Below, piece by piece: positions 650-20,353 of a DNA stretch of 56,325 bases. The notes below the pieces were generated by a model, which had not been told where the DNA came from, ran no database searches, and was given only the letters and a program-made list of their open reading frames with translations. Position 1 is the stretch's first letter; each line of letters starts with the position of its first letter. A program made the translations under genes and the position numbers. This DNA is from Lautropia sp. SCN 69-89 (GTDB taxonomy: Bacteria; Pseudomonadota; Gammaproteobacteria; Burkholderiales; Burkholderiaceae_E): NCBI GenBank assembly GCA_001724855.1, contig MEED01000026.1, forward strand, positions 1 through 56,325, read 5' to 3'.

Positions 650-683
650 GAAAGCAAAACGGGCCACCCTTTCGGGTAGCCCG
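650..683 (-). terminator. Rho-independent terminator of the defence operon
   Basis: Read on the minus strand, the arms at 683-674 and 669-660 form a 10-bp GC-rich stem with one G-U or mismatch and a 4-nt loop. A T-rich run (TTTTGCTTT) follows at once. It lies 130 bp past the stop of the last gene of the operon (815) and is correctly oriented to end its transcription. Confidence 0.7.
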
Positions 684-814
684 CTTTGCGTTCAATGGTG
701 GCGGATGGTTGACCGCAGAACTGGGTCCTCGGTCAGCCAGTTCGGACCGGTGCTGGCGCCTGCAGACGACTACGGAACACCGACGAAATCGCCGTTGAGC
801 AGATCGACGGGAGA

Positions 815-2560
815 TCAAAGGACGCCCGCATCAGTGAGCTCCGCCATCAAGGCAATGGCCCGGTCACAGTCGTCGGCGAGGGCACGAAAGTGCGACTTCA
901 GATCGCCGTGTTTGGCAATCATCGCCTCACGGAGCGCCTTGGCATCAGAGCCGCCAGCGTGACCCTTCATCTTGCTGCGTAAGTCGTGCAGCGACTTCAG
1001 AGGTGCCACGACGGCTGTGGCTTCCTCTTCATTCACCTGCGCATGCAGAAGGACCTCGCTGATCAGTTTCAGGCTGCCCCATTGCGGTTCCACCGTGATG
1101 CCGGCCGCTTCGGCCTTCGACTTAAAGTAACTTCTGCTCAAGCCCTCGACGACCAACTGGTCGAGGGCCATCAATTCGTTTGCCCACTCTTCCTGGCTGG
1201 CCGTAACCGGGTAGTGCACGCGATCTGGCAGCTGTGGGTTTTTCAGGCTCCACCAGGTAATTCCTGCCCCGTTCAAGGCTTGGAGGCGTCTTTTCAGGCT
1301 TGCCAGCGGGTCCGGGGAGGTGTCCCACTGTGCCAAGAAGTCGGATTTGTAAGCCCGCGCTGAAATTCCCGCCTTGGGCGCTTCGTTGAACGACTTCCAG
1401 TAGAGTTGTTCCGCGTAGGGCAGGAGGTTGAGATCGCAGAGGTAGGCGTGGACTTGGTCTGCTTCGTTGATGTCGTAGCTCTTCAGGAACCACGCCCCAC
1501 GGCAGTGAATCGATCTTCCTTCGATCTGGTACTTATCCGGGTCTGCTTTGTATTTCAGCAGAACTTCTGGTCGGAAAAACGCGGGACTGGTTTGAAATGG
1601 CAGATCGGATTCGACGAAGTAGTTGCCGAGCTGGGCGGGATCGCATGAGCACTCGTGCACTACGCCGTGCTTCCAGTCCTGGGCTATGAAGGTGGCGTAC
1701 TTTTTTGGTTCGGGGGATTCCCACATCAGGCGTCGCCGCAGCCGTTCGTTGATGACAGGCGCGGTCACCTGAAATCCGCGCAGATAGCTTTCACGGCCCG
1801 TGTTGGCGCGACCACGGTAATATAGGCTTTCTTCGACGAGGCTGACATGTTCCTCGGGTCCATCACCCCAGCTGGTAAAGTTTCCGGGATCGAACCGGGT
1901 GGAATCGAACAGCAAAACGTACGACGATTCGAGCATCAAGAGCAGCACATCGAGGTCTTCGCGCTTGATCGTGACCACGCGACCATCTGACAATTTATGG
2001 ATACGCACAACTTCTTCGACATCACCGTTTTCGTCCAGCCGGCAATAGGCACTGCGTTCAGGCACTAGGTGCAGCCCCAAAAGGTGCGCAACCTTCTGCG
2101 AGAGTTCGACGTAGGTGCGGTCGTCTCGGTGGCCGTCAAATTCCCGGATGAAGAGCAACTGCTCCCCGTGCTCAAGCGTCTTCGAGCCGCAGCTGCTCAA
2201 AGGCGGCTCGATCCACATCTGCCGTTCCGATGCGCCTTCTCTATAGCCGTGGCACAGCCCCCAGGAGGAGCATGGGTTGCAGCTCCAGCCCAGCAGGTCA
2301 TCCACGTCGATTGGTGACACGGAGGATGAGGGCACCGCGATGCCATACAGAAAGCAATGCGTCAGTCCGGCATAGAGAACGACTTCATCGCGCTGGCGCT
2401 CGTCGCGCAGAAACGCAAGAAAGTCCTCCTGTTCAATCCACGCGCCGTACTCCTGGGATTGGCGGTCGGGTTTGGTGGCCATCTGGATCAGCGCCCTCGT
2501 GGTGGAACCCAGCGCGGGAAGTCCAGCTGTGGTCATAGGGGTTCTGGTTGGTTTGGCCAT
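815..2560 (-). CDS. Unrecognised 581-residue protein, last gene of the defence operon
   Basis: I do not recognise this protein. It is 581 residues, soluble and mixed alpha/beta in character, with no transmembrane segment. Notable are a cysteine cluster at C94, C97 and C103 inside a Trp- and Gly-rich stretch, a middle part rich in aromatic residues, and a helical, charged C-terminal third. No P-loop, DEAD-box, HNH or PD-ExK motif is evident. The start is supported by AGAGGAG about 6 nt upstream of the ATG at 2560. It begins 19 nt after the metallopeptidase gene on the same strand and ends before the terminator at 683-650. By position it is an accessory or independent defence component; that is inference only. 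Confidence 0.7.
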   Translation of the reverse strand: MAKPTRTPMTTAGLPALGSTTRALIQMATKPDRQSQEYGAWIEQEDFLAFLRDERQRDEVVLYAGLTHCFLYGIAVPSSSVSPIDVDDLLGWSCNPCSSWGLCHGYREGASERQMWIEPPLSSCGSKTLEHGEQLLFIREFDGHRDDRTYVELSQKVAHLLGLHLVPERSAYCRLDENGDVEEVVRIHKLSDGRVVTIKREDLDVLLLMLESSYVLLFDSTRFDPGNFTSWGDGPEEHVSLVEESLYYRGRANTGRESYLRGFQVTAPVINERLRRRLMWESPEPKKYATFIAQDWKHGVVHECSCDPAQLGNYFVESDLPFQTSPAFFRPEVLLKYKADPDKYQIEGRSIHCRGAWFLKSYDINEADQVHAYLCDLNLLPYAEQLYWKSFNEAPKAGISARAYKSDFLAQWDTSPDPLASLKRRLQALNGAGITWWSLKNPQLPDRVHYPVTASQEEWANELMALDQLVVEGLSRSYFKSKAEAAGITVEPQWGSLKLISEVLLHAQVNEEEATAVVAPLKSLHDLRSKMKGHAGGSDAKALREAMIAKHGDLKSHFRALADDCDRAIALMAELTDAGVL

Positions 2561-2579
2561 TCGTTCTCCTCTTGCCGCC

Positions 2580-3286
2580 TCAAAGCAGCGCCGCTTCCAG
2601 CCGCTGCTTGCGCTGTTCCCAGTCCGGCATCACATGCCCGAGCAGCTTGAAGAAGCGTGCATCGTGGTCGCGGTGTCTTGTGTGGCAAAGCTCGTGGGTC
2701 ACCACGTACTCGATGCAGGGGCGGGGGGCACGCACCAGGTTGAGGTTCAAGGTCATAGTGCCGGCGCGTGACAGACTGCCCCAGCGGGATTGCATGGCGC
2801 GCACGATGAGGCGCGGTTGCTCGACGCCTTTGAAGTGGAGCAGGCTGGCGTCCAGAACCTCAGTGAATACGGCTCGTGCCCGGTCGAGATACCAGCGGTG
2901 CAGCAATGTCTTGACGCGCTCTGGCTCCGGCTCGCCGGGCAGCGAGACCAGAAGCTGGCCGCGTGTGAGCTTGACGCTGGCCGAATCTCCCTCCGCCAGC
3001 TTCAGCCGGTACTGCCGGCCGAGATAGAGATGCGATTCCCCGTTGATGTACTGTCTTGCCGGTGTGCGGGGACGGTAACGCTCGAACTCGGCCAGTTGCC
3101 GGCTGATCCATGCAGCACGTTTTTGCACCCGCTCCGCAATCAGTGCCTCGGGGCAATCGACGGGCGCGCGCACCAGCACGCGGCTATCGGGGTGGACCTC
3201 GATGGCCAGGGTCTGCCGCGATGCCAGAAATCGCACCTCGTAGCGGATCGTGTCGGTGCCCCAGGTCAGCGTTCCGGTCATCGTCT

Positions 3287-3290
<4 letters not shown>
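2580..3290 (-). CDS. YgjP-type (DUF45) zinc metallopeptidase
   Basis: A 236-residue protein of the DUF45/YgjP family of predicted metal-dependent hydrolases. The zinc-binding signature HELCH is at residues 199-203, with a further histidine at 209, and the family's SRWGS motif is at 168-172. The N-terminal part is beta-rich and poorly conserved, as usual. Such genes are frequent companions of type I restriction genes, often right after hsdR, although their role there is not established. Here the ATG overlaps the hsdR stop by 4 nt (ATGA), which implies translational coupling. Confidence 0.88.
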
Positions 3291-6483
<3,193 letters not shown>

Positions 6484-6486
6484 ACC

Positions 6487-7326
6487 CTAAAGCGCCCAGG
6501 CGGGGTGCGTGACCGCGTTGTAGAAGTCGATGCACTCGGCATCGGGTGTGCGGCCCAGCCGCTCGCGCTTGGCATCGAGTCTGGTCACAAGACCGGCATA
6601 AAAGGCCTGCTCGCCCGCCCAGGCTTCCGGTTGTGTCGTGAGCTCCAGATGGCGGCGATACACATAACTCACGGCATCCGCCACCTGTACGAGCGAGGAG
6701 TGCTGCGACTTGATCGCAAAGGCGGTATTGATGATGTGGTCGAAGCGTTGGGGCTGTTTCAGCTCGCCCCACTGATTCTTGCCTTTGACCTTCTTCGTCT
6801 GCTGGTACAAGGCGTCGAACCACGGCTCGGCCAGATAGAGCCCGTCCGACACCTTGGGCATATGGGCCTTGTTGTCGTCGAAAATGAGGACGGTCAGCCC
6901 TTTGTTGTTGGACTTGCCCTGCATTTTCTTCTGGATGAGACCGCTGACGAACATCCCGTTGAGCGCCCAGTAATTTCCAGCGCATGGCGTGGTGTAAGTG
7001 CCGCTGGCGCAGGCCGCATTGAAGCGCTCGAACGACATCCCGAAGCCATAGATCGACGAGACTTCCGCAGCCAGCGCGCACATGTCGGTGAGGAACTGTT
7101 TGCGGTCGTCGGCAGAAACCGTATTCCAGCCGCCGCGGCCGTTGATGAAGGCTTTGGTTTTGAGCTCGTTCGGCGCGCCAGGGTGCTTGGCCAGAAAGAC
7201 AGCCAATTCCTGGTCGAAGCGGTTGGTGTACTTGCGCAGGCGGTAGGCATCGATCAGCAGGCCCGCCATGACGAATACATCACCTTCCTCGGTACTGCCG
7301 GATTCGTCGATATAGGCAAACTTCAT
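6487..7326 (-). CDS. DUF3800 domain protein
   Basis: A 279-residue protein that opens with YIDESGS at residues 5-11, the hallmark of the DUF3800 family. As I understand it, the family is predicted to have an RNase H-like fold, with the first acidic residues as candidate metal ligands. Further acidic patches (IFDDNKAH and QVADAVSYV) fit the same architecture. DUF3800 genes are common in defence and mobile-element neighbourhoods, but no defined activity is established. The gene starts 2 nt after sduA stops and ends 3 nt before hsdR starts, so it belongs to the operon. Confidence 0.85.
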   Translation of the reverse strand: MKFAYIDESGSTEEGDVFVMAGLLIDAYRLRKYTNRFDQELAVFLAKHPGAPNELKTKAFINGRGGWNTVSADDRKQFLTDMCALAAEVSSIYGFGMSFERFNAACASGTYTTPCAGNYWALNGMFVSGLIQKKMQGKSNNKGLTVLIFDDNKAHMPKVSDGLYLAEPWFDALYQQTKKVKGKNQWGELKQPQRFDHIINTAFAIKSQHSSLVQVADAVSYVYRRHLELTTQPEAWAGEQAFYAGLVTRLDAKRERLGRTPDAECIDFYNAVTHPAWAL

Positions 7327-7328
7327 GA

Positions 7329-8741
7329 TCAGCTCTCCGCCTCGGCCGCGCGCAGGAAGGCGCTCAGCTGTTTGAGTTTCTCCAGCAGCTCGTCGAAGGT
7401 TACGATCTCGACGTCCTTGGAATTGCGCCGGAACAGCTCGAAAGACTTCTTCCGGTCATCGCCATCGGGCGTCTTGCCAATCACGAGGCAGCAATGCACG
7501 GCATAGGACTCGATGTCGTAAAGCCGGGTGTTGTCCTTGATCTGGGCAATCTGCTTTTGAAACTGGTACTTCTGATCGAGCGCCTGATTGATCGAACCCG
7601 ACAGATCGGCCGATGGCGTATAAACGCCATCGCGAAATGGTGTCTTGTTGAGAATCGGCGTCTGTGACGTCTTGATCTCGAAGATTGCCGTGTTGTTGGT
7701 CAGGCTGTTCTTCACCAGAAAATCAGTGATCTTTTCCCCGTCGCCCGACAGCTTGCGTCCACCGACCGATGCCTGGTCCCGCACCTTGATCACGGGATAG
7801 CCGAAGGCCATGTTCAGAATGAAGGGGTTCTCGTTGAAGAATTCCTGCCAGTGACCTTCGTTCAGATTCTCGCCAAGCATCCCCTCATATCGGGTGATCA
7901 GGGCTTCAAGCGTCACCAGCTCGATGTCGCCGCGTAGCTTCGCCAGCTTCTCCGGCTGATCTTCAGCGATATCGGCGGCATGGCTGGTCAGGGTGCCAAT
8001 GACGGCGTTCTGATCCTCCTCGGACAGCTCCTGCTTGCCCTCCGCCACGGCGGTGAAGAGCTTGCGATAGGGGTGCCGGCCGGCTTTCGGTTCCTGCTTC
8101 GGCACCCCGAGCCGTTCCGCCAGGATGTTGTGGGCAGCAGTCCATTTCACGGCGCGGACAGCAGATTGCGCGTGGCGGTCAATCTTGTTCAGTTCGACGC
8201 GCGCCTGCTCGAAGTCCTGCGTGGAGATGTAGAAGATCCCGTCGCCGTCCTGGGTGGGACCGGTGGCGTGTTTGTCGGTGATGACTATTTCGCTGCAATC
8301 CGACAGCTCTTGCACCGCATCAATGATGAATCGGTACGGCTTCGCGAGGCCAAGCCCGTAGGCGTAGTCCTTGGTGAAAGTGGAGGGTAGATTCTCCAGG
8401 ACATCGCGCACGTCCTCCGGTGTCGAGTTCGCGTCCCAGCCGACCCCGGAGATGATGTCTGTGTCGTCGAGCGTGATGCGCTCGATCTGGCCATATTTCG
8501 GCTTGAGGAAATCGGATCGGTCGCCGAATGTGCTGATCGGATAGATCGTCAGAAAATTGTGCTGGCCGCTGATTTCCAGCAGCTTGGTTTTGTAGCGAGT
8601 AGCTTGCACCGGGTCGAGCCCAGCCTCCACCAGACTCCGCTCCGGCGGTACGAAGTAGACCTCGACGAAATTGGGATGGACCTCAGCGACCTCGAGGGTG
8701 CCATCGCGATCCGGGTCATGCTGCCGGAAACCGAGCGCCAT
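7329..8741 (-). CDS. sduA: Shedu-type anti-phage nuclease SduA (DUF4263)
   Basis: A 470-residue protein whose C-terminal half matches the Shedu/DUF4263 nuclease fold, a PD-(D/E)xK type. The motif residues are E295 (EGHWQEFF), D340 (ITDFL) and E355-I-K357 (FEIKTS). The first 280 residues form a separate, beta-rich regulatory part typical of longer Shedu proteins. Shedu acts as a stand-alone anti-phage system in other bacteria. Here it is embedded between hsdS and the DUF3800 gene. I chose the ATG at 8741, not the one 33 nt upstream, because it overlaps the hsdS stop as ATGA, like most junctions in this operon. All catalytic residues are present. Confidence 0.85.
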   Translation of the reverse strand: MALGFRQHDPDRDGTLEVAEVHPNFVEVYFVPPERSLVEAGLDPVQATRYKTKLLEISGQHNFLTIYPISTFGDRSDFLKPKYGQIERITLDDTDIISGVGWDANSTPEDVRDVLENLPSTFTKDYAYGLGLAKPYRFIIDAVQELSDCSEIVITDKHATGPTQDGDGIFYISTQDFEQARVELNKIDRHAQSAVRAVKWTAAHNILAERLGVPKQEPKAGRHPYRKLFTAVAEGKQELSEEDQNAVIGTLTSHAADIAEDQPEKLAKLRGDIELVTLEALITRYEGMLGENLNEGHWQEFFNENPFILNMAFGYPVIKVRDQASVGGRKLSGDGEKITDFLVKNSLTNNTAIFEIKTSQTPILNKTPFRDGVYTPSADLSGSINQALDQKYQFQKQIAQIKDNTRLYDIESYAVHCCLVIGKTPDGDDRKKSFELFRRNSKDVEIVTFDELLEKLKQLSAFLRAAEAES

Positions 8742-9973
8742 CAGTTGGCCTCCTCTTGAACGGGCAATAGCCACTCGCCCGTGAGCAACTTCTGCATCAG
8801 ACCGCGCTTCTGGGTCTTCAGCGCCGCGACGGTCTGGCCGAGAAGGTCGATCTCCTTGCGCAGGGCGTTGAGGTAACGCGCAATGGCGGTTTGCGTGCTG
8901 CTATCCGGTAGCGGAATGGTGATCGCGGCGAACTCCGAGAACGACACGGTCTCGCGGACACTGCCCTGGGCGCTGTTCTTGATGCGCTGGCGGGCTTCGT
9001 GGGAGTTCAGCCAGTGCAGGAAGTAGTCCGAATTGGCCTTGCTCTCGTCGAGTCGGAACACGACATACATCGGGCTGAGTACGCCATCGTCCCAGCCATC
9101 GAGGCGGGCGATGGAGCCGACATTGATGCGCGACGGGTTGTAGGCGTACTGCCCACGGTGCACCACCTTGTAGTTGGACAGGTCGGCGCTGGCGACACGG
9201 CGTTCGAACTGGTCTTCCGGGAGCACGAAGCCGCGCGAATTGGTCACGCTCAGCACACGGGCCTCGTTGCCGCCGCGATTGCGAGCGGAGACTTCCTCGG
9301 CAAAGGTGCCGACATGCACGTGCGGGTGGTGGCCCCGGCTGATCAGGCGCGACAGTTCGTGGCTGTAGTGCCGCTCCTTCGCCGCGATCAGTTGCTCGGT
9401 TTTCTGGATAGCGGTGTCCCAGGTCGACAGAAGGCTGGCAATCTCCTGCTGAAGTGCAAAGCTAGGCAATGGGACGCGTTGGCGCTTGAGGTTCGTTCCG
9501 TTGATTACAGGGACTGTGCCGTCATTGCAGAACCGTTGTAGGTCTTGAAAATCGAACCAGTAGTAAAGGTATTCGGCGGAACAAGAGTGTGTATCCCTCA
9601 CCGTAACAACGATTACGTTATCGTCCGTGAGGCTTGCGTATCGAAGGATGCGTTTGTTGTTGTTTCTTAGTGCTGCACCCACTCGCGGGAACACGATGCT
9701 TCCAGGTGGAAATGGTGTCGCGCCCATCTCTTCGAGGACAATGTCATCAACGTAATTGAGGGTCCTGTCGAGATACTTTGTATTTCCATGCGCGTTGAGG
9801 TCGCCGACCTTTACGTACAGCCATTTTCCTGTTGCTTGACCTTGATAGCTAGGACTGAAGGTGTAGCCCTGTTGCACCACTGCAATTTCGCCGAGCGGAT
9901 ATTCGTCGAGGTGGTGAGCTGTAGGTTGCCGAGTCGCGTTGTCTTTGTGCTCGGCGGTGGTTTCGAGCGTCAT
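8741..9973 (-). CDS. hsdS: Type I restriction-modification specificity subunit HsdS
   Basis: A 410-residue HsdS with the usual two-fold layout. The first target-recognition domain spans about residues 25-175 (GEIAVVQQGYTFSPSYQG), followed by a helical spacer (about 176-210, ALQQEIASLLSTWDTAI). The second domain spans about 220-370 and a terminal helix (TAIARYLNALRKEIDLL) ends in the QKLLTGEW motif seen at many HsdS C termini. It sets the bipartite recognition site for HsdM and HsdR; that site cannot be read from sequence alone. It overlaps rhuM upstream and sduA downstream by 4 nt each. Confidence 0.93.
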   Translation of the reverse strand: MTLETTAEHKDNATRQPTAHHLDEYPLGEIAVVQQGYTFSPSYQGQATGKWLYVKVGDLNAHGNTKYLDRTLNYVDDIVLEEMGATPFPPGSIVFPRVGAALRNNNKRILRYASLTDDNVIVVTVRDTHSCSAEYLYYWFDFQDLQRFCNDGTVPVINGTNLKRQRVPLPSFALQQEIASLLSTWDTAIQKTEQLIAAKERHYSHELSRLISRGHHPHVHVGTFAEEVSARNRGGNEARVLSVTNSRGFVLPEDQFERRVASADLSNYKVVHRGQYAYNPSRINVGSIARLDGWDDGVLSPMYVVFRLDESKANSDYFLHWLNSHEARQRIKNSAQGSVRETVSFSEFAAITIPLPDSSTQTAIARYLNALRKEIDLLGQTVAALKTQKRGLMQKLLTGEWLLPVQEEAN

Positions 9974-10942
9974 TTCTTCTTCCCCCGCCCTTTGCCTTCC
10001 AGCTGCCGCTCGGTCTGTTCCAGCGCCGCGATATCCTCCGCATCCGCCGCCAGCCGCGTCGCCTCGCGCCGTGCCGCGTCGAAACTCTCATAGCGCTCCA
10101 GCACCAGTTTCTCCGCTACATCCGCGCGCAGCTTGCCGGCGTGGGTCAGCACCTCGCGTTCGTTGAACTGCAGGAAGGCGTCGAGCTTGTCTTCCCAGTC
10201 GCGCATGGTCAGGGTGCGGCGGCGCTGGGCGGTCCAGGGCCTCGATCTCTTCGCGGCTCAGGTAGTTCTTGGCGATGGTGACGTCCTGCTTGCGCACCCG
10301 GCCGCCGGCCCAGTTGGTCAGGCCCATGTTGGGCAGGGCGGGGTCGGCGCGGCCGGCGATGAGTTCGGGTGCGGTGTGGCCGGTGACGGCCCAGAGCATT
10401 TTGTTCTGCACCTTCTTGAAGAACAGCTGGGCGGCCTCGGACCTGCTGTCGTAGTCCACGGCGGTGGCGTAGATGTCGCGGATCTTCTGGTAGAAGCGCT
10501 TCTCAGAGGCGCGGATGTCGCGGATGCGCGCCAGCAGCTCGTCGAAGTAGTCCCAGCCGCCGGGCTCCTTCAGGCGGGCGTCGTCCAGCACGAAGCCCTT
10601 GACCAGGTACTCGCGCAGGTGGGTGGTGGCCCACTGGCGGAACTGGGTGCCGCGCGGGGAGCGCACCCGGTAGCCGACGGCCAGGATCATGTCCAGGCTG
10701 TAAGCCATTGTTTTGTAGTTCTTTCCGTCACTGGCAGTTGTCAAGTATTCCTTGACGACTGCCGGCGACAGCTCGCCCTCGGCCAGGATGTTCTTGATGT
10801 GCAGGCTGACGTTCTGTTTGGACGTATCGAACAGGCTGGCCATTTCGAGCTGGGTGAGCCACACCGTGCCGCCCTCGGCACGCAGCTGGATGGCGGCGCT
10901 GCCGTCCTCGGCCGTGTAAAGGATCAGTTCGCCGCCGCTCAT
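9970..10942 (-). pseudogene. RhuM-family protein, interrupted by a frameshift
   Basis: The N-terminal 236 residues (10942 to about 10235) form a typical RhuM protein with a winged-helix-like start (VWLTQLEMASLFDTSKQN) and the long helical middle part. The C-terminal part (MRDWEDKLDAFLQFNEREVL onward, 10206 to 9970) is in another frame. The residues that family members carry between EEIEAL and the AQRRRTL-MRDWE segment are missing, so a short out-of-frame deletion is the simplest explanation. RhuM genes are frequent inserts in type I restriction operons; their role is unclear. The start overlaps the hsdM stop and the end overlaps the hsdS start, each by 4 nt, so the locus keeps its operon position despite the break. 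Confidence 0.83.
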
Positions 10943-12474
10943 ACGCCCAGCTCCTTGAGGTACTGCTTCATGCGCAGGCGCACCTCGGCCAGCTCGCCTT
11001 CCAGGCGCTCGATCTCCTGCTCGACAGCGGCGACGTCGATTTCTTCCTCTTCCTCGAAGGTGTCCACATAGCGCGGGATGTTGAGGTTGAAGTCGTTGTC
11101 GGCGATCTCCTTTAGGCTCGCGACATGGGCGTACTTGTCCACCGGCTGCCGGGCGCGGAATGTGGCGAGCACCTTGGCCATGTGCTCGTCGAGCAGGGCG
11201 TTCTGGTTCTTGCCGCTCTGGTAGTCGCGGCTGGCGTCGATGAATAGCACGTCCTGGCAGTCTTCGCGGGCGCCGCCCTTTTCGCGGGCACGGTCGAAGA
11301 CCAGGATGGCGACCGGAATCGAGGTGGTGGGAAAGAGGTTGCCCGGCAGGCCGATGACGGCGTCGAGCAGGTTCTCCTCGATCAGGGCGCGGCGGATGCG
11401 GCCCTCGGCGCCCACCACCACGGCCACGCGGCCTTCCTGCGGCAGCGCGGTTTCGATCATGTGGGTGATGAAGGCGTAATCACCCTTGGACTTGGGCGGC
11501 AGGCCGCGCCAGAAGCGGCTGTAGCGGTCGGCCTCGACCTCCTGGCCGCCCCATTTGTCGAGACTGAAGGGCGGGTTGGCCACGACCACGTTGAAGCGCA
11601 TCAGGCGGTCGGCCTCCACCAGCGCCGGGCTGTTGAGGGTGTCGCCCCATTCGATGCGGGCGGCGTCCTTGCCATGCAGGAACATGTTCATGCGTGCTAG
11701 CGCCCAGGTGCTGCCGTTGACCTCCTGGCCGAACAGCGCAAAGTCGCGGCTGCCCTGTGCTTCCACCAGCGCGGCGGCTTCGATCAGCAGGCCACCGGCG
11801 CCGCAGGTGGGGTCGCAGATGCGGTCGCCGGCCTTGGGGCCGGCCAGTTGCGCCAGCAGCTTCGATACTTGTTTTGGCGTGTAGAACTCGCCGGCCTTCT
11901 TGCCGGCGTCCGAGGCGAAGCGTTCGATCAGGTAGATGTAGGTGTCGCCGATCACGTCCTCGGACACGCGCGAGGGACGCAGGTCGAGCTTGGCGAAGTC
12001 GCCCAGCAGGTTTTCCAGGCGGCGGTTGCGGTCCTTGGTCTTGCCGAGGTTGGCCTCGGAGTTGAAGTCGATGTTGCGGAACACGCCTTCGAGCTTGGCC
12101 TTGTTGGCCTCCTCGATGTGGTCGAGCACGATGTTGATCAGCTCGCCGAGGTTGGCCGCCTTGCGCCGCTCGTACAGGGCATGAAAATCGGCCAGAAATC
12201 GGTCGGTGACCTCGCCGGTTTTCTCATCCTTGAACTCGACGTAGGGCAGGATGAAGCGCTCGCGCTCCAACTTACGGCGGATGCGCTCCTCGTTGTCGCC
12301 GTATTCCTTTTTGTACTCGGCGTAGTGGTCGGCCCACTGGTCGCTGATGTACTTCAGGAACAGCATCACCAGGATGTAGTCCTTGTACTGCGCCGGATCG
12401 ACGACGCCGCGGAAGGTGTCGCAGGCGGCCCAGGCGGTGTTGTTGACGTCTTGTTGGGTGAGCTGGTCGGTCAT
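10939..12474 (-). CDS. hsdM: Type I restriction-modification methyltransferase HsdM
   Basis: A 511-residue N6-adenine methyltransferase subunit. It has the HsdM N-terminal helical domain (residues 1-150), the SAM-binding motif DPTCGAGG at 221-228, catalytic NPPF at 300-303 and a C-terminal coiled-coil region rich in Glu. It methylates the site chosen by HsdS and, with HsdR, licenses restriction. I chose the ATG at 12474 because it overlaps the preceding half-HsdS stop as ATGA and begins with the conserved MTDQLTQQDVNNTAW. Upstream in-frame sequence reads as low-complexity shadow. All catalytic motifs are intact. Confidence 0.95.
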   Translation of the reverse strand: MTDQLTQQDVNNTAWAACDTFRGVVDPAQYKDYILVMLFLKYISDQWADHYAEYKKEYGDNEERIRRKLERERFILPYVEFKDEKTGEVTDRFLADFHALYERRKAANLGELINIVLDHIEEANKAKLEGVFRNIDFNSEANLGKTKDRNRRLENLLGDFAKLDLRPSRVSEDVIGDTYIYLIERFASDAGKKAGEFYTPKQVSKLLAQLAGPKAGDRICDPTCGAGGLLIEAAALVEAQGSRDFALFGQEVNGSTWALARMNMFLHGKDAARIEWGDTLNSPALVEADRLMRFNVVVANPPFSLDKWGGQEVEADRYSRFWRGLPPKSKGDYAFITHMIETALPQEGRVAVVVGAEGRIRRALIEENLLDAVIGLPGNLFPTTSIPVAILVFDRAREKGGAREDCQDVLFIDASRDYQSGKNQNALLDEHMAKVLATFRARQPVDKYAHVASLKEIADNDFNLNIPRYVDTFEEEEEIDVAAVEQEIERLEGELAEVRLRMKQYLKELGV

Positions 12475-13052
12475 GGGGTGGCCCTTTCTGGGGATGGGTG
12501 GGCAAGCTTCATCAGCATGTGCGTGGTCAGGCGCTGGCGCAGGGTGGCGATGCGGGCCAGCAGTGTTTGTTCTTGTTCGGCCAGGGCGGCTGCCTGCACG
12601 ATGCGTTGCTGTGTGGCCTGCGAAGGCAGCGGCACCTCCAGCGCCTTCAGCGCTTCGGCGCTGATCATCCGCACCGAGGTGCCCTCGGCCAGCGCTGCCA
12701 GTTGGGCCTGCGTGGCCGGCGCGTTGATGTACCAGCACAGGTAGGCGGGCAGCACCTTGTGGGGCCGGATCAGCAGCATCGGCGCCGAGAGCACGGCCGG
12801 GCCGATGCCTTCCAGCACCTGAGCTGCGCCATTGTTGCGACCCCGAGAACGGAACAGCAGGTCGCCCGCACACAGCAGGTGGTGGGTCTTGCCCTTGGGC
12901 AGCGTTACCCGGATCGCTTCTTCGGCGTGCAGCAGGTTGGCGTCGTCGATGTCCTTCATCTGGATCACGGCGACATCGCCCTGCGGGTCGTGCTCGAGAC
13001 GCGACCGGAAGGGGTAGCCCATCTGTACTTCAGCCAGCCCGCCAAGATTCAT
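12471..13052 (-). CDS. Half-size HsdS-like protein, first gene of the defence operon
   Basis: A 193-residue protein equal to one target-recognition domain plus one helical conserved region of HsdS. It opens with LAEVQMGYPFRSRLE, has a DIDDANL segment, and ends with a helix (RIVQAAALAEQEQTLLARI) of the sort that spaces the two domains of HsdS. Half-size S proteins can dimerise into a working specificity subunit, or an extra one could modulate the complex. A full HsdS is also encoded 2.5 kb downstream, so its role is open. It is the first gene behind the promoter at 13092-13120 and overlaps hsdM by 4 nt. Confidence 0.85.
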   Translation of the reverse strand: MNLGGLAEVQMGYPFRSRLEHDPQGDVAVIQMKDIDDANLLHAEEAIRVTLPKGKTHHLLCAGDLLFRSRGRNNGAAQVLEGIGPAVLSAPMLLIRPHKVLPAYLCWYINAPATQAQLAALAEGTSVRMISAEALKALEVPLPSQATQQRIVQAAALAEQEQTLLARIATLRQRLTTHMLMKLAHPSPERATP

Positions 13053-13060
13053 GTTTGCAA

Positions 13061-13138
13061 AAACGCCGTTACGACAATCATCATGGGCGCCATCTTAGAT
13101 GGCCACATTCTGCCTGTCAATTAAAAGTAACGACGTTT
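13061..13138 (-). promoter_or_regulatory. Defence-operon promoter with flanking inverted repeats
   Basis: On the minus strand TTGACA (13120-13115) is followed by a 17-bp spacer and TAAGAT (13097-13092), close to a sigma-70 consensus. It lies about 40 bp upstream of the first start codon (13052). A 12-bp inverted repeat with one mismatch brackets it (13061-13072 AAACGCCGTTAC and 13127-13138 GTAACGACGTTT). A smaller palindrome (GCCATC-TTA-GATGGC) covers the -10 box. The palindromes suggest a repressor or control-protein site; no regulator gene is identified. Confidence 0.75.
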
Positions 13139-13637
13139 CTACAAAGTGTGGTGTTGGCTGTCTGGGCCGGGATGGCAAGAATGGGGTAAACAGTGAACTC
13201 GTTGCCCCATTCAGAGCGCGGCTTACCCTGTTCGCCTTCGAGGCAGGTCGCGACCCCCAAGTGCAAACCGCAAACCCTGCAAACCTTGGTTTGCACCCTC
13301 ACGGTAGACGAGCAGCGCGCTCGCGCCCCCCGTATAGGAATCTGGCCAGGAAGGACCCGTGCCGTCTCGCCGGGGCATCGTTCCCATGTCCGGCCTGTCA
13401 TTGGCATCGAGGGAGGTGAGCATTCCCGATGCTCACCCTCTCTCTTTAGAGAGGAATCGCCGGGAACCGGGAAAGTGGCGTCGTTGCTGGGTTTGCGCGT
13501 TCCCGCCCCCATCCGGGAACGGTTTGGACCGGGAACGCTGGAATCCCGCGCCAGGCTTGAGTTTGCCGTTCCCACCCGGCCCTGCGTTCCCGGTCGGGAA
13601 GTGGGAAGTCGGGAACGGATGCCTGCTCCGGAAATGC
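13139..13637. repeat. Repeat-rich intergenic region between the defence operon and the primase
   Basis: About 500 bp without a convincing gene. It contains three direct GCAAACC copies (from 13263, 13270 and 13279) and one inverted copy, which makes an 8-bp palindrome at 13278-13295. Two further hairpins are at 13415-13437 (9-bp perfect stem) and 13437-13454 (7-bp stem). There are eight copies of GGGAAC or its complement at 13380, 13462, 13499, 13515, 13531, 13568, 13586 and 13611. The pattern looks like iterons of an origin or of a multi-site operator and lies directly 3' of the primase gene. Open frames here have no recognisable domain. Confidence 0.6.
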
Positions 13638-17500: not shown

Positions 17501-17962
17501 ATGACTGAAACCGCAATGAACGACAGCATCAGCGCGCAGGTGGCGGCGCTGCCCGGCCTGCCCATGAAAGCCCTTTGGGCGCTGTGGGATGCGCACTTCC
17601 CGCGCCGCCCCGCCCACACCAACCGCCACTACGTGGAGTCGCGCCTGGCCTACCGGCTGCAGGAACAGGCCTACGGGCCGCTGCCGGCGGGCGTGCGCCG
17701 CTATCTGGTGGAACGCGGTGCGCAGTTCTCGAAGATCCAGCAGGCCGGACGAGGCACGGAATGCCATCTGATGCCCGGCACGGTGCTGGTGCGCGAATGG
17801 GACGAGCGCGAGTACCGGGTCACCGTCACCGCCGATGGTCTGTACGAACTCAACGGCCAGCGCTTCAAAAGCCTGTCGGCGGCGGCGCGCCACATCACCG
17901 GCACCCAGTGGTCGGGCCCGAAATTCTTCGGGCTCAAAGCGGGCAAGGGAGGCAAACGATGA
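17501..17962 (+). CDS. DUF2924 domain protein
   Basis: A 153-residue basic protein matching DUF2924, with the typical start (MKALWALWDAHFPRRP, then YVESRLAYRLQEQAYG) and end (SLSAAARHITGTQWSGPKFFGL). Members are nearly always encoded immediately before a serine recombinase on phage- or island-derived elements, and this is the case here: its stop overlaps the recombinase start as ATGA. The role is unknown; a DNA-binding partner of the recombinase is plausible. An AGGAG site about 9 nt upstream supports the ATG at 17501. Confidence 0.85.
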   Translation: MTETAMNDSISAQVAALPGLPMKALWALWDAHFPRRPAHTNRHYVESRLAYRLQEQAYGPLPAGVRRYLVERGAQFSKIQQAGRGTECHLMPGTVLVREWDEREYRVTVTADGLYELNGQRFKSLSAAARHITGTQWSGPKFFGLKAGKGGKR

Positions 17963-19299
17963 GCATTGCCATCCTGGCCTCACCCAAGCGCTGCGCGGTG
18001 TACTGCCGCGTCTCCAGCGACGAACGCCTCGACCAGTCCTTCAACTCCATCGATGCCCAGAAGGAAGCCGGCCACGCCTTCATCAAGAGCCAGACCCACG
18101 AGGGCTGGATTGCGGTAGCGGACGACTACGACGACGGTGGCTTCTCCGGCGGCAACATGGACCGACCCGCACTCAAGCGTCTGCTGGCCGACATCGAAGC
18201 CGGCCGCATCGACATCGTGGTGGTCTACAAGATCGACCGGCTCAGCCGCTCGCTGGCCGACTTCGCGCGCATGGTGGAGGTGTTCGACCGCTGCGGCGTG
18301 AGCTTCAGCGCCGTCACCCAGCAGATCAACTCGGCCACCTCGATGGGGCGGCTGATGCTGAACGTGCTTCTGTCCTTCGCCCAGTTCGAGCGCGAGGTCA
18401 CTGGCGAGCGTATCCGCGACAAGATAGCTGCCAGCAAGGCCAAGGGCATGTGGATGGGCGGGCCGCTGCCACTGGGCTACGACGTGCAGAACCGCCTGCT
18501 CGTCGTCAACGAGGCCGAGGCTACCGTGGTGCGGCGCATCTTCGCGGACTTCGCCCGCGATCGCTCGACCACCCACATGGTGCGCAACTACGCGGCTGAA
18601 GGCATCCGCACCAAGACGGGCCGCACCTTCTGCAAGCAGTCGATCTACAAGCTGCTGCACAACCGCATGTACCTCGGTGAGATCGTCCACAAGGGGCGCT
18701 ACTACCCGGGGCAGCATCCGCCGATCCTGACAAGGGCACAGTGGCAGGCCGCCCACGACGTGCTGGCCCAGACCGCCGAGGAACGGCGTGCGGCGGTCGC
18801 CACCGACGGGCGCGGTTTGCCGCTGCTGCGCGGACTGATCTTCACCACCAGCGGCGAGCGGCTGATCCCGACCCGCACGACCAAGAAGGGTCAGTGCTAC
18901 CGCTACTACACGCCGGCCAAGGACCGCCACTACGGGGCGGGCGCCTCCAACTTCGGCAGCCTGCCGGCTGAATCCATCGAGGCGCTGGTGGTCGAGCAGG
19001 TCTGCCAGGTGCTGCGCGCGCCGGAGAGCGTGCAAGCGGTGTGGGACCGGGTACGCGAGAGCGGGCTCGATCTCGACCAGGCACGGGTGGTGGTGCCGAT
19101 GCGCCAGCTCGCCGCCGTCTGGCCCTCGCTGTTCCCGGCCGAGCAACGCCGCCTGGCGCAACTGCTGATCGAGCGCGTGCTGATCGGCAACGACGGGCTG
19201 GAGATCCTCTGGCGCGACGCCGGATGGGTGGAACTGATCGACGAACTGCGCCCCAACAGCATCGGCGCGGAACTGGCGGAAGTGGAGATGACGGTATGA
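17959..19299 (+). CDS. Serine recombinase (resolvase/recombinase family)
   Basis: A 446-residue site-specific recombinase. The N-terminal resolvase domain (about 10-155) has the CRVSS motif with nucleophile S19, the KIDRLSRS motif and FEREVTGERI. The recombinase domain follows (about 165-290, GYDVQN onward and the KQSIYKLLHNRMYLG segment). The usual zinc-ribbon part (about 290-345) is present as a fold-like stretch but has almost no cysteines (only the one in GQCYRYY). The C-terminal helices are shorter than in large phage integrases. It is the likely integrase of this island and sits next to ssrA. The ATG at 17959 overlaps the DUF2924 stop. Confidence 0.9.
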   Translation: MSIAILASPKRCAVYCRVSSDERLDQSFNSIDAQKEAGHAFIKSQTHEGWIAVADDYDDGGFSGGNMDRPALKRLLADIEAGRIDIVVVYKIDRLSRSLADFARMVEVFDRCGVSFSAVTQQINSATSMGRLMLNVLLSFAQFEREVTGERIRDKIAASKAKGMWMGGPLPLGYDVQNRLLVVNEAEATVVRRIFADFARDRSTTHMVRNYAAEGIRTKTGRTFCKQSIYKLLHNRMYLGEIVHKGRYYPGQHPPILTRAQWQAAHDVLAQTAEERRAAVATDGRGLPLLRGLIFTTSGERLIPTRTTKKGQCYRYYTPAKDRHYGAGASNFGSLPAESIEALVVEQVCQVLRAPESVQAVWDRVRESGLDLDQARVVVPMRQLAAVWPSLFPAEQRRLAQLLIERVLIGNDGLEILWRDAGWVELIDELRPNSIGAELAEVEMTV

Positions 19300-19990: not shown

Positions 19991-20353
19991 TGGTGGAGCC
20001 GGCGGGAATCGAACCCGCGTCCGCAAGTCCTCTACGACCAGTTCTACATGCGTAGTCGATCTATTTGGATCTCGATGCAGGCTTAGCCGGTCGACAGGCC
20101 GACCTGCATCCAGTCACCTTGGTTCTAGCTCCGCACCAAGTGACCCGGCGCGGCACGATCCGACATGAATGACGCTGCTGTTCCTTGCGGAACCCGGGCT
20201 ATCGGCGACCCGGTGCAGCGGCTCAGGCCTTAAGCGGCCAGTGCGAAACGCTCGTCGTTGGCGTTTGTGGTTTTGCCAATGGATTTACGAGGAAAAGGCG
20301 CCTCGGCATGCCCTGTGCCGCTTTGCTACCCACGTCGAAACCAAGTCGGCCCC
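19991..20353 (-). ncRNA. ssrA: Transfer-messenger RNA (tmRNA), one-piece
   Basis: tmRNA rescues stalled ribosomes and tags the nascent chain for proteolysis. The 3' end carries the tRNA-like T arm (GCGGGTTCGATTCCCGC) and ends in encoded CCA at 19991. The 5' GGGGCCG at 20353 pairs with CGGCTCC near the 3' end. The tag frame at 20262-20230 reads ANDERFALAA then TAA, the usual betaproteobacterial tag. Length is 363 nt and the RNA is not permuted. The 3' ends of tmRNA genes are classical integration targets, and the serine-recombinase island lies right next to it. Confidence 0.96.

Follow-up and report, generated by a model that had tools for sequence, protein, structure and literature searches.

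The 56,325-nt stretch of Lautropia sp. SCN 69-89 analyzed here (contig MEED01000026.1; "the window") carries a nine-gene operon that, judged by its predicted products, is an instance of a widespread frame for type I restriction, made up of a half-size HsdS gene (halfS), hsdM, hsdS, hsdR, and a YgjP/SprT-like peptidase gene. The frame has two variable places, slot 1 between hsdM and hsdS and slot 2 between hsdS and hsdR. We consider it probable that a type I frame with swappable cargo, and with the half-HsdS as operon controller, jointly explains its features. The narrower proposal is that the half-HsdS would be a dedicated transcriptional controller, acting as a homodimer, perhaps with HsdM and methylation, on lineage-specific promoter palindromes and governing both restriction and the slot module; here our confidence is only slightly better than even. 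Little is understood of how type I systems, the classic restriction enzymes, are transcribed. If the proposal is true, a controller derived from a specificity subunit explains the half-size hsdS at the operon head, and there is a testable operator code in which several lineages have their own half-site. Unrelated defense genes would then gather between hsdS and hsdR partly through inheriting regulated expression, slot 2 offering an incoming module a ready-made regulated promoter.

Gene order, cargo exchange, and operator-like sites are direct observations on the DNA. On the minus strand, from 13052 down to 815, the window encodes half-hsdS, hsdM, rhuM, hsdS, sduA (a Shedu nuclease), a DUF3800 gene, hsdR, ygjP, and a gene for a 581-amino-acid (aa) protein, an arrangement that bears out the single-strand gene run described in the first-pass annotation. 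The order halfS-hsdM-rhuM-hsdS-sduA-(DUF3800 or HAD)-hsdR-YgjP/SprT is recurrent, and slot 1 frequently holds a RhuM or BRO-N protein. Three alphaproteobacterial plasmids have the same order with hsdR and rhuM undivided, and so does Serpentinimonas barnesii (L012), which has an extra BRO-N gene in slot 1 and an SduA that is 94% identical. The first-pass annotation had held that the genes are not a chance cluster and had named an order found only here as grounds for giving that view up. Neighborhood comparison sustains the view: because the order recurs in Serpentinimonas and the plasmids, this is no chance cluster, and the synteny far exceeds chance.

Whether the genes also act together is a separate question. 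The first-pass annotation had proposed that the proteins are made together and may act as one composite system, and a single machine of HsdM/HsdS/HsdR, RhuM, SduA, DUF3800, and YgjP would be consistent with the position of SduA between hsdS and hsdR in L006-L009, L012, L014, L015, L016, L018, and L022. The SduA proteins of L006-L009 share 69-79% identity with that of the window, as against ~50% for HsdR, and sduA follows hsdS in other type I loci as well (L011, L028, L029, and L032). However, these loci overstate the case because they were found through SduA. When genome contigs were scanned with an alignment of six SduA sequences, 26 loci were obtained. The frame of L014, L015, and L016 matches that of the window; L018 has it without RhuM, and so does L022, in which a 152-aa gene and a kinase gene separate hsdS from sduA. 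Only hsdS is visible ahead of sduA in L019, and other type I genes lie near sduA in L021, L025, L028, L029, L032, and L033. SduA occurs without type I genes in the available DNA of L017 (63%), L024, L026, and L030, the last of which has RhuM. L013, L020, L023, L027, and L031 are too short for their context to be judged, and L034-L037 match the nuclease part of SduA only.

Loci found without an SduA query argue against the composite machine. With the L012 HsdM as query, matches came from 23 of the 369 class genomes at an E value of 1e-100 and from 10 of the 200 relatives at 1e-150, the genome's own copy being counted in each. The HsdM-seeded set comprised 23 loci other than the window's own: 14 class loci of at least 56% identity, 8 relatives, and the congener G005, with 8 class loci of 42-45% identity set aside. 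Slot 2 is visible in 19 of them and holds SduA in none; the other four run off the available DNA. The half-HsdS of L008 (Roseicitreum) matched 44 plasmid records, including the SduA carriers L007-L009. Among 16 further regions seeded in this way, 15 hold the frame, none with SduA, and in L084 halfS is followed by an insertion sequence (IS) element. Thus, SduA is missing from 15 of the 18 halfS-seeded plasmid frame loci examined (L007-L009 and the 15 new ones, with 25 of the 44 records left aside), and the three that have it were already known.

What slot 2 holds instead is diverse. In G005 (L046) a 2TM effector and SMODS cyclase of the cyclic oligonucleotide-based antiphage signaling system (CBASS) take the place of sduA-DUF3800. 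Elsewhere the slot contains a PHP/SMC-like ATPase (L061), DUF4917 (L062), DUF3800 (L063), a PDC-M07A ATPase (L047), an OLD-like ATPase with DUF3800 (L052), a KAP NTPase (L057), Fic (L060), RhuM (L059), or a Schlafen-AlbA protein among others (L068), and it has no clear gene in L049, L055, and L064. The cargo types overall thus include CBASS, Fic, KAP, OLD-like, DUF4917, a kinase, or none; the family scan of slot 2 covered loci other than L048, L054, L056, L058, L065, and L067. PADLOC families found in the slots include PDC-S05 (RhuM), PDC-S13, PDC-S34, PDC-S21, PDC-S20, PDC-S04, PDC-M04, and PDC-M07; the PDC families are reportedly the defense candidates that Payne et al. proposed through guilt by embedding. 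DUF3800 is found without SduA in L052, L063, and L071, just as SduA is found without type I genes nearby. In the examples checked, gene overlaps are equally tight with TIGR04141 or Fic cargo as with SduA. Because unrelated cargo overlaps just as tightly, the coupling belongs to the slot and is no evidence of joint action; tight gene overlaps are poor proof of a joint machine. We therefore regard the composite machine as improbable. In the swappable-cargo reading, slot 2 would be a site for an exchangeable defense module, here SduA and DUF3800. HsdS would guide methylation by HsdM and cleavage by HsdR, and SduA would be a separately acting nuclease that shares the promoter and translational coupling and adds a second layer.

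The 581-aa protein, which the first-pass annotation counted as part of the operon's system, does not belong to the conserved frame. Its gene is absent from all 43 other frame loci (a list of 44 entries in which L038 duplicates L006), six of which hold less than 900 nt past YgjP. Besides the own genome, the protein has a match in 1 of 100 relatives, and no relative was found in a scan of viral contigs. On the counts in frame loci and relatives, we rejected it as a core part. A relative (41%) on a Pseudomonas aeruginosa plasmid (L010, 11977-20353) has a CBASS-like set of genes nearby (SAVED, nucleotidyltransferase, ThiF, and Mov34), and because of these neighbors the protein may be defense linked. 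Other surroundings of the frame also vary. One SduA-bearing copy (L006) is on an IMG/VR contig classed as viral. On a Proteus plasmid (L074, 3123-8955) and an Enterobacter plasmid (L078, 4495-10341), TnsA, transposase, ATP-binding, and TnsD genes adjoin the frame, which may be Tn7-like cargo there. An annotated pair of AbrB/MazE-like and MazF genes follows the SprT gene on plasmids of Gluconobacter (L075, 18530-19102) and Acetobacter (L081, 13586-14157).

The second part of our explanation concerns the promoter. When the window and eight close relatives were aligned upstream of the operon, two inverted sites were seen to flank the promoter, kept with variation in all nine (sequences in the table), and the window's site pair occurs at a single place in its own 3.8-Mb draft genome. 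Alphaproteobacterial loci have CTGTAG-N6-CTACAG or close forms at similar places, other lineages have GCATCA-N7-TGATGC, and L051 has CAGTAA-N5-TTACTG. Single clear palindromes are built on GCATGA in Gluconobacter and on GCACCA in three Acetobacter plasmids. The CTGTA and GCATCA motifs reappeared in plasmid loci fetched later (L069, L070, L072-L074, L076, L077, and L080). A pair score of at least 22 out of 24 was reached by 13 of 41 upstream regions versus 25 of 5,894 control windows from the same loci, which are related (L079-L084 being left out) and so do not amount to 41 independent trials. The motifs are also specific to their position. All 8 matches to CTGTA-N8-TACAG in six genomes or records lie at this promoter (the backwards pattern gave 12 matches), as do 9 of 10 matches to GCATCA-N7-TGATGC in six further genomes or records (backwards pattern, 0). 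Together, 17 of 18 matches across twelve genomes or plasmid records are at this promoter; in one plasmid a matching site overlaps the halfS start. LexA was set aside as the binder of CTGTA-N8-TACAG because the E. coli LexA box has a shorter spacer.

Which protein would bind these sites? Because they stand at the promoter and almost nowhere else in the scanned genomes, we infer that the half-HsdS most likely binds there. The genes present in nearly all frames are halfS, hsdM, hsdS, hsdR, and ygjP. Between the window and L012 the half-HsdS is 89% identical and HsdM 94%, in contrast to 33% for HsdS; HsdS is not likely to maintain one constant operator because its recognition domains are exchanged while the half-HsdS stays nearly constant. 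The half-HsdS has one target recognition domain (TRD) and a short C-terminal stretch, so a homodimer with a symmetric bipartite target is expected. Engineered half-HsdS dimers do recognize a palindromic bipartite site, and their authors compared them in passing to repressors, according to the accessible part of that report (PMC6158711). The half-HsdS homodimer would read a symmetric bipartite site flanking the operon's own promoter, and its binding, alone or with HsdM, would set expression of the whole operon; methylation of the operator site is possible. Half-HsdS and half-site also change together in some comparisons: L075 and L081-L083 share 96-98% identity in HsdM and 76-83% in half-HsdS and have the half-sites GCATGA and GCACCA, respectively, while L059 and L074 share 82% in HsdM and 25% in half-HsdS and differ in their operators too.

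The same protein could instead provide a second specificity, methylating and restricting a palindromic target with HsdM and HsdR while something else binds the promoter palindromes. PADLOC classes the half-HsdS as a specificity subunit, and engineered half-HsdS is described in the portion of the source available as active in modification and, with HsdR, in restriction (PMC6158711). The concentration of the motif matches at this promoter fits an operator, unlike a restriction target; moreover, halfS is conserved while HsdS is exchanged, and no other DNA-reading candidate except HsdS recurs in nearly all frames. We judge a second specificity to be rather unlikely. RhuM is another candidate binder, since RhuM and BRO-N proteins are common in slot 1 and resemble DNA-binding regulators. 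Yet palindromes are present in L018, L054, L055, L057, L069, L070, and L072-L074, none of which has a RhuM match, which makes regulation by RhuM very improbable.

Several observations weigh against the half-HsdS as controller or against the operators themselves. Of the 41 upstream regions, 28 score below 22. The window and the eight other members of its group score 14-18, at control level; both the same-orientation score and a version allowing inverted pairs missed this group because its palindromes are degenerate; for these loci the argument relies on alignment and uniqueness. In other low-scoring loci, such as L006, L016, L018, L050, L055, L071, and L075-L077, sites were identified by eye only or comprise one clear palindrome, and no clear operator is seen in the upstream regions of L022, L052, L053, L058, L078, and L079. 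Among the loci fetched later, the CTGTA and GCATCA motifs were not found in L078 and L079 and were only partial in L071, and the record of L072, one of the six for CTGTA-N8, has no exact match, its spacer being different. The half-HsdS of L066 is nearest to that of L054 (49%), yet its sites are different and hardly palindromic. No halfS was detected in L056 and L068, and it is partial in L067. Half-site classes were assigned by eye, and their covariation with half-HsdS is only suggestive because half-HsdS and HsdM mostly change together. Finally, the 10-12 fixed bases exceed the usual type I site, so a single TRD may not read them all.

The copy in the window appears not to be whole. If the assembly is correct, the reading frames of hsdR and rhuM are interrupted, and hsdM is damaged as well, features overlooked in the first-pass annotation, whose gene identities otherwise agree with our Pfam and PADLOC profile searches of the window proteins. 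Compared with the L012 operon, which is ~90% identical in DNA, hsdR lacks 25 nt at ~5269, interrupting the motor region; rhuM lacks 38 nt (32+6) at ~10228, as measured against L012 only; and hsdM is 24 nt short at ~11412, an in-frame loss corresponding to 8 residues. These eight residues are kept in 9 of 9 relatives where a pattern located the stretch, the pattern being blank in 4 more distant loci. The three lesions may reflect decay. Alternatively, they could be assembly errors in a copy that is whole, a reading to which we give not quite an even chance. The source is a draft genome of 70 contigs (3.8 Mb), and all three gaps are short and lie inside conserved stretches. Window-side gaps of similar size occur in core alignments of the same contig (38 nt at ~39643 versus G009 and 24 nt at ~41677 versus G005). 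Nor are broken frames unusual in assemblies of this kind, as G005 shows: its hsdR and its cyclase are both divided between frames, at sites other than those in the window. On the other hand, the hsdR and hsdM gaps appear in comparisons with L012 and with G005 alike, the hsdM gap is flanked by short repeats, as expected from slippage, and no core gap of at least 10 nt is common to all four congeners compared.

G005 illustrates cargo exchange. Its operon shares 85% identity with the window in half-HsdS, 94% in HsdM, and 93-97% in the hsdR pieces, and it lies directly beside the transfer-messenger RNA (tmRNA) gene, likewise on its 3' side. The operon and the tmRNA gene next to it correspond to those of the window, but the CBASS effector and cyclase replace sduA-DUF3800. 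In G005 (L046, 11079-15182) the CBASS-like 2TM effector and SMODS cyclase are parted by an IS21-like element, the cyclase is in two frames, and the downstream hsdR is also split between frames. In the window, the tmRNA gene and the operon are ~7 kb apart, and a serine recombinase and a toprim/AAA protein are encoded in this interval; because this insert is absent in G005, a younger element may have entered there.

The carriage of defense genes within type I operons is a known kind of arrangement, as far as the available parts of the reports on DarTG2, TgvAB, and PrrC describe it. In the RRDM island of enteropathogenic E. coli, DarTG2 occupies the place between hsdS and hsdR, and a metallopeptidase gene lies downstream (PMC12255303). 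As described in the accessible text, that island shares with the window the order hsdM-hsdS-[cargo]-hsdR-metallopeptidase and a promoter with palindromic operators, but its first gene encodes RptR, a 9-kDa repressor binding TAGCTA, its cargo is different, and, as listed, it has no half-HsdS (PMC12255303). We rejected an RptR-controlled island of this type for the window, where the first gene encodes a half-HsdS and the promoter region has no TAGCTA (no search was aimed at rptR). TgvAB, in a type I operon of Vibrio cholerae VPI-2, protects without HsdR activity and is likewise a second defense system beside hsdS and hsdR, though the cargo is GmrSD-like and a half-HsdS goes unmentioned in the part of the report available (PMC11411939). 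PrrC is another defense gene embedded in a type I operon, according to a source available in part (PMC12629846). The MADS system was also rejected, since of the mad1-mad8 set only mad2 (8.9e-47) and mad5 (7e-27 and 8.3e-12) appeared among the matches listed, all below the best type I models. Restriction operons of type II encode small DNA-binding controllers, the C proteins, of which the half-HsdS would be a type I counterpart; C proteins have a helix-turn-helix fold, unlike the TRD of a half-HsdS. The structures of Esub1 (PDB 8vsq/8vsr, 198-206 aa), a half-size HsdS-like protein, match the halfS profile at an E value of ~2e-10. Our literature search found no publication on Esub1, and the entries may be prior art for half-HsdS regulators. 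In the same search, which excluded most subscription papers, we found neither a half-HsdS regulator nor a Shedu system within a type I operon reported, and no description of long-kept Shedu cargo, CBASS exchange, or half-HsdS with operators.

By gene content, the window encodes HsdM, HsdS, and HsdR together, with hsdR in two frames; HsdR has HSDR_N nuclease and SWI2_SNF2 motor domains, the latter interrupted at ~5269; and other defense genes lie between hsdS and hsdR. SduA matches the Shedu models SduA_C (PF14082, 1.7e-26) and PDLC00384 (1.2e-171). D340, E355, and K357, invariant in six sequences, are what we take to be its D-(x)-ExK nuclease residues. The Shedu structures 8ti8, 8ti9, and 8ps4 match the nuclease core, ~residues 227-461 of the profile, and a sequence search against structures gave no solved relative of the N-terminal part.

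The nine genes are one operon, and the whole is likely expressed from a single promoter. The tight junctions described in the first-pass annotation are present for the most part. Overlaps are ATGA at halfS/hsdM, hsdM/rhuM, and rhuM/hsdS (the last counted in the original rhuM frame), TGATG at hsdS/sduA, and GTGA at hsdR/ygjP. Gaps of 2 nt and 3 nt separate sduA/DUF3800 and DUF3800/hsdR, but a gap of 19 nt precedes the 581-aa gene (U581). A promoter-like sequence precedes the first gene, where the first-pass annotation named a single strong promoter, and TTGAC is conserved at the same place in many relatives; a consensus promoter scan, however, gave 2 sites in 16 kb versus 2.3 expected, so the scan alone carries no evidential weight. 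The single terminator that the annotation reported was confirmed by folding energy and missed by a consensus scan.

Table. Features of the window, with the evidence for each
Feature	Position	Strand	Basis and remarks
tmRNA gene	19991..20353	-	Operon on its 3' side, ~7 kb away
Large serine recombinase	17575-19299	+	Near tmRNA gene
Upstream operator-like site GTAGAAACGTCGTTAC	13127..13142	-	Alignment and uniqueness; inverted copy of downstream site
Putative promoter TTGACA-17-TAAGAT	13092..13120	-	Sequence and conservation
Downstream operator-like site GTAACGGCGTTTTTGC	13057..13072	-	Alignment and uniqueness; between -10 and first start codon
Half-size HsdS, 193 aa, one TRD and C-terminal stretch	12471..13052	-	Pfam/PADLOC; proposed operon controller
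hsdM	10939..12474	-	Pfam; in-frame 24-nt gap at ~11412
rhuM (slot 1)	9970..10942	-	Pfam; out of frame from ~10228
Full-size hsdS	8741..9973	-	Pfam and PADLOC
sduA, Shedu nuclease (slot 2 cargo)	7329..8741	-	Pfam and PADLOC
DUF3800 protein (slot 2 cargo)	6487..7326	-	Pfam; no PADLOC family matched
hsdR	3287..6483	-	Pfam and alignment; split into open reading frames 5095-6483 and 3287-5266
YgjP/SprT-like metallopeptidase	2580..3290	-	Pfam
581-aa protein	815..2560	-	No Pfam or PADLOC family; add-on outside conserved frame
Intrinsic terminator	654..689	-	-32.8 kcal/mol, z -7.6

The window starts at contig base 1, 814 nt past the last operon gene. Beyond the operon terminator, a DUF3330 protein is encoded at the contig end (325-539, plus strand).

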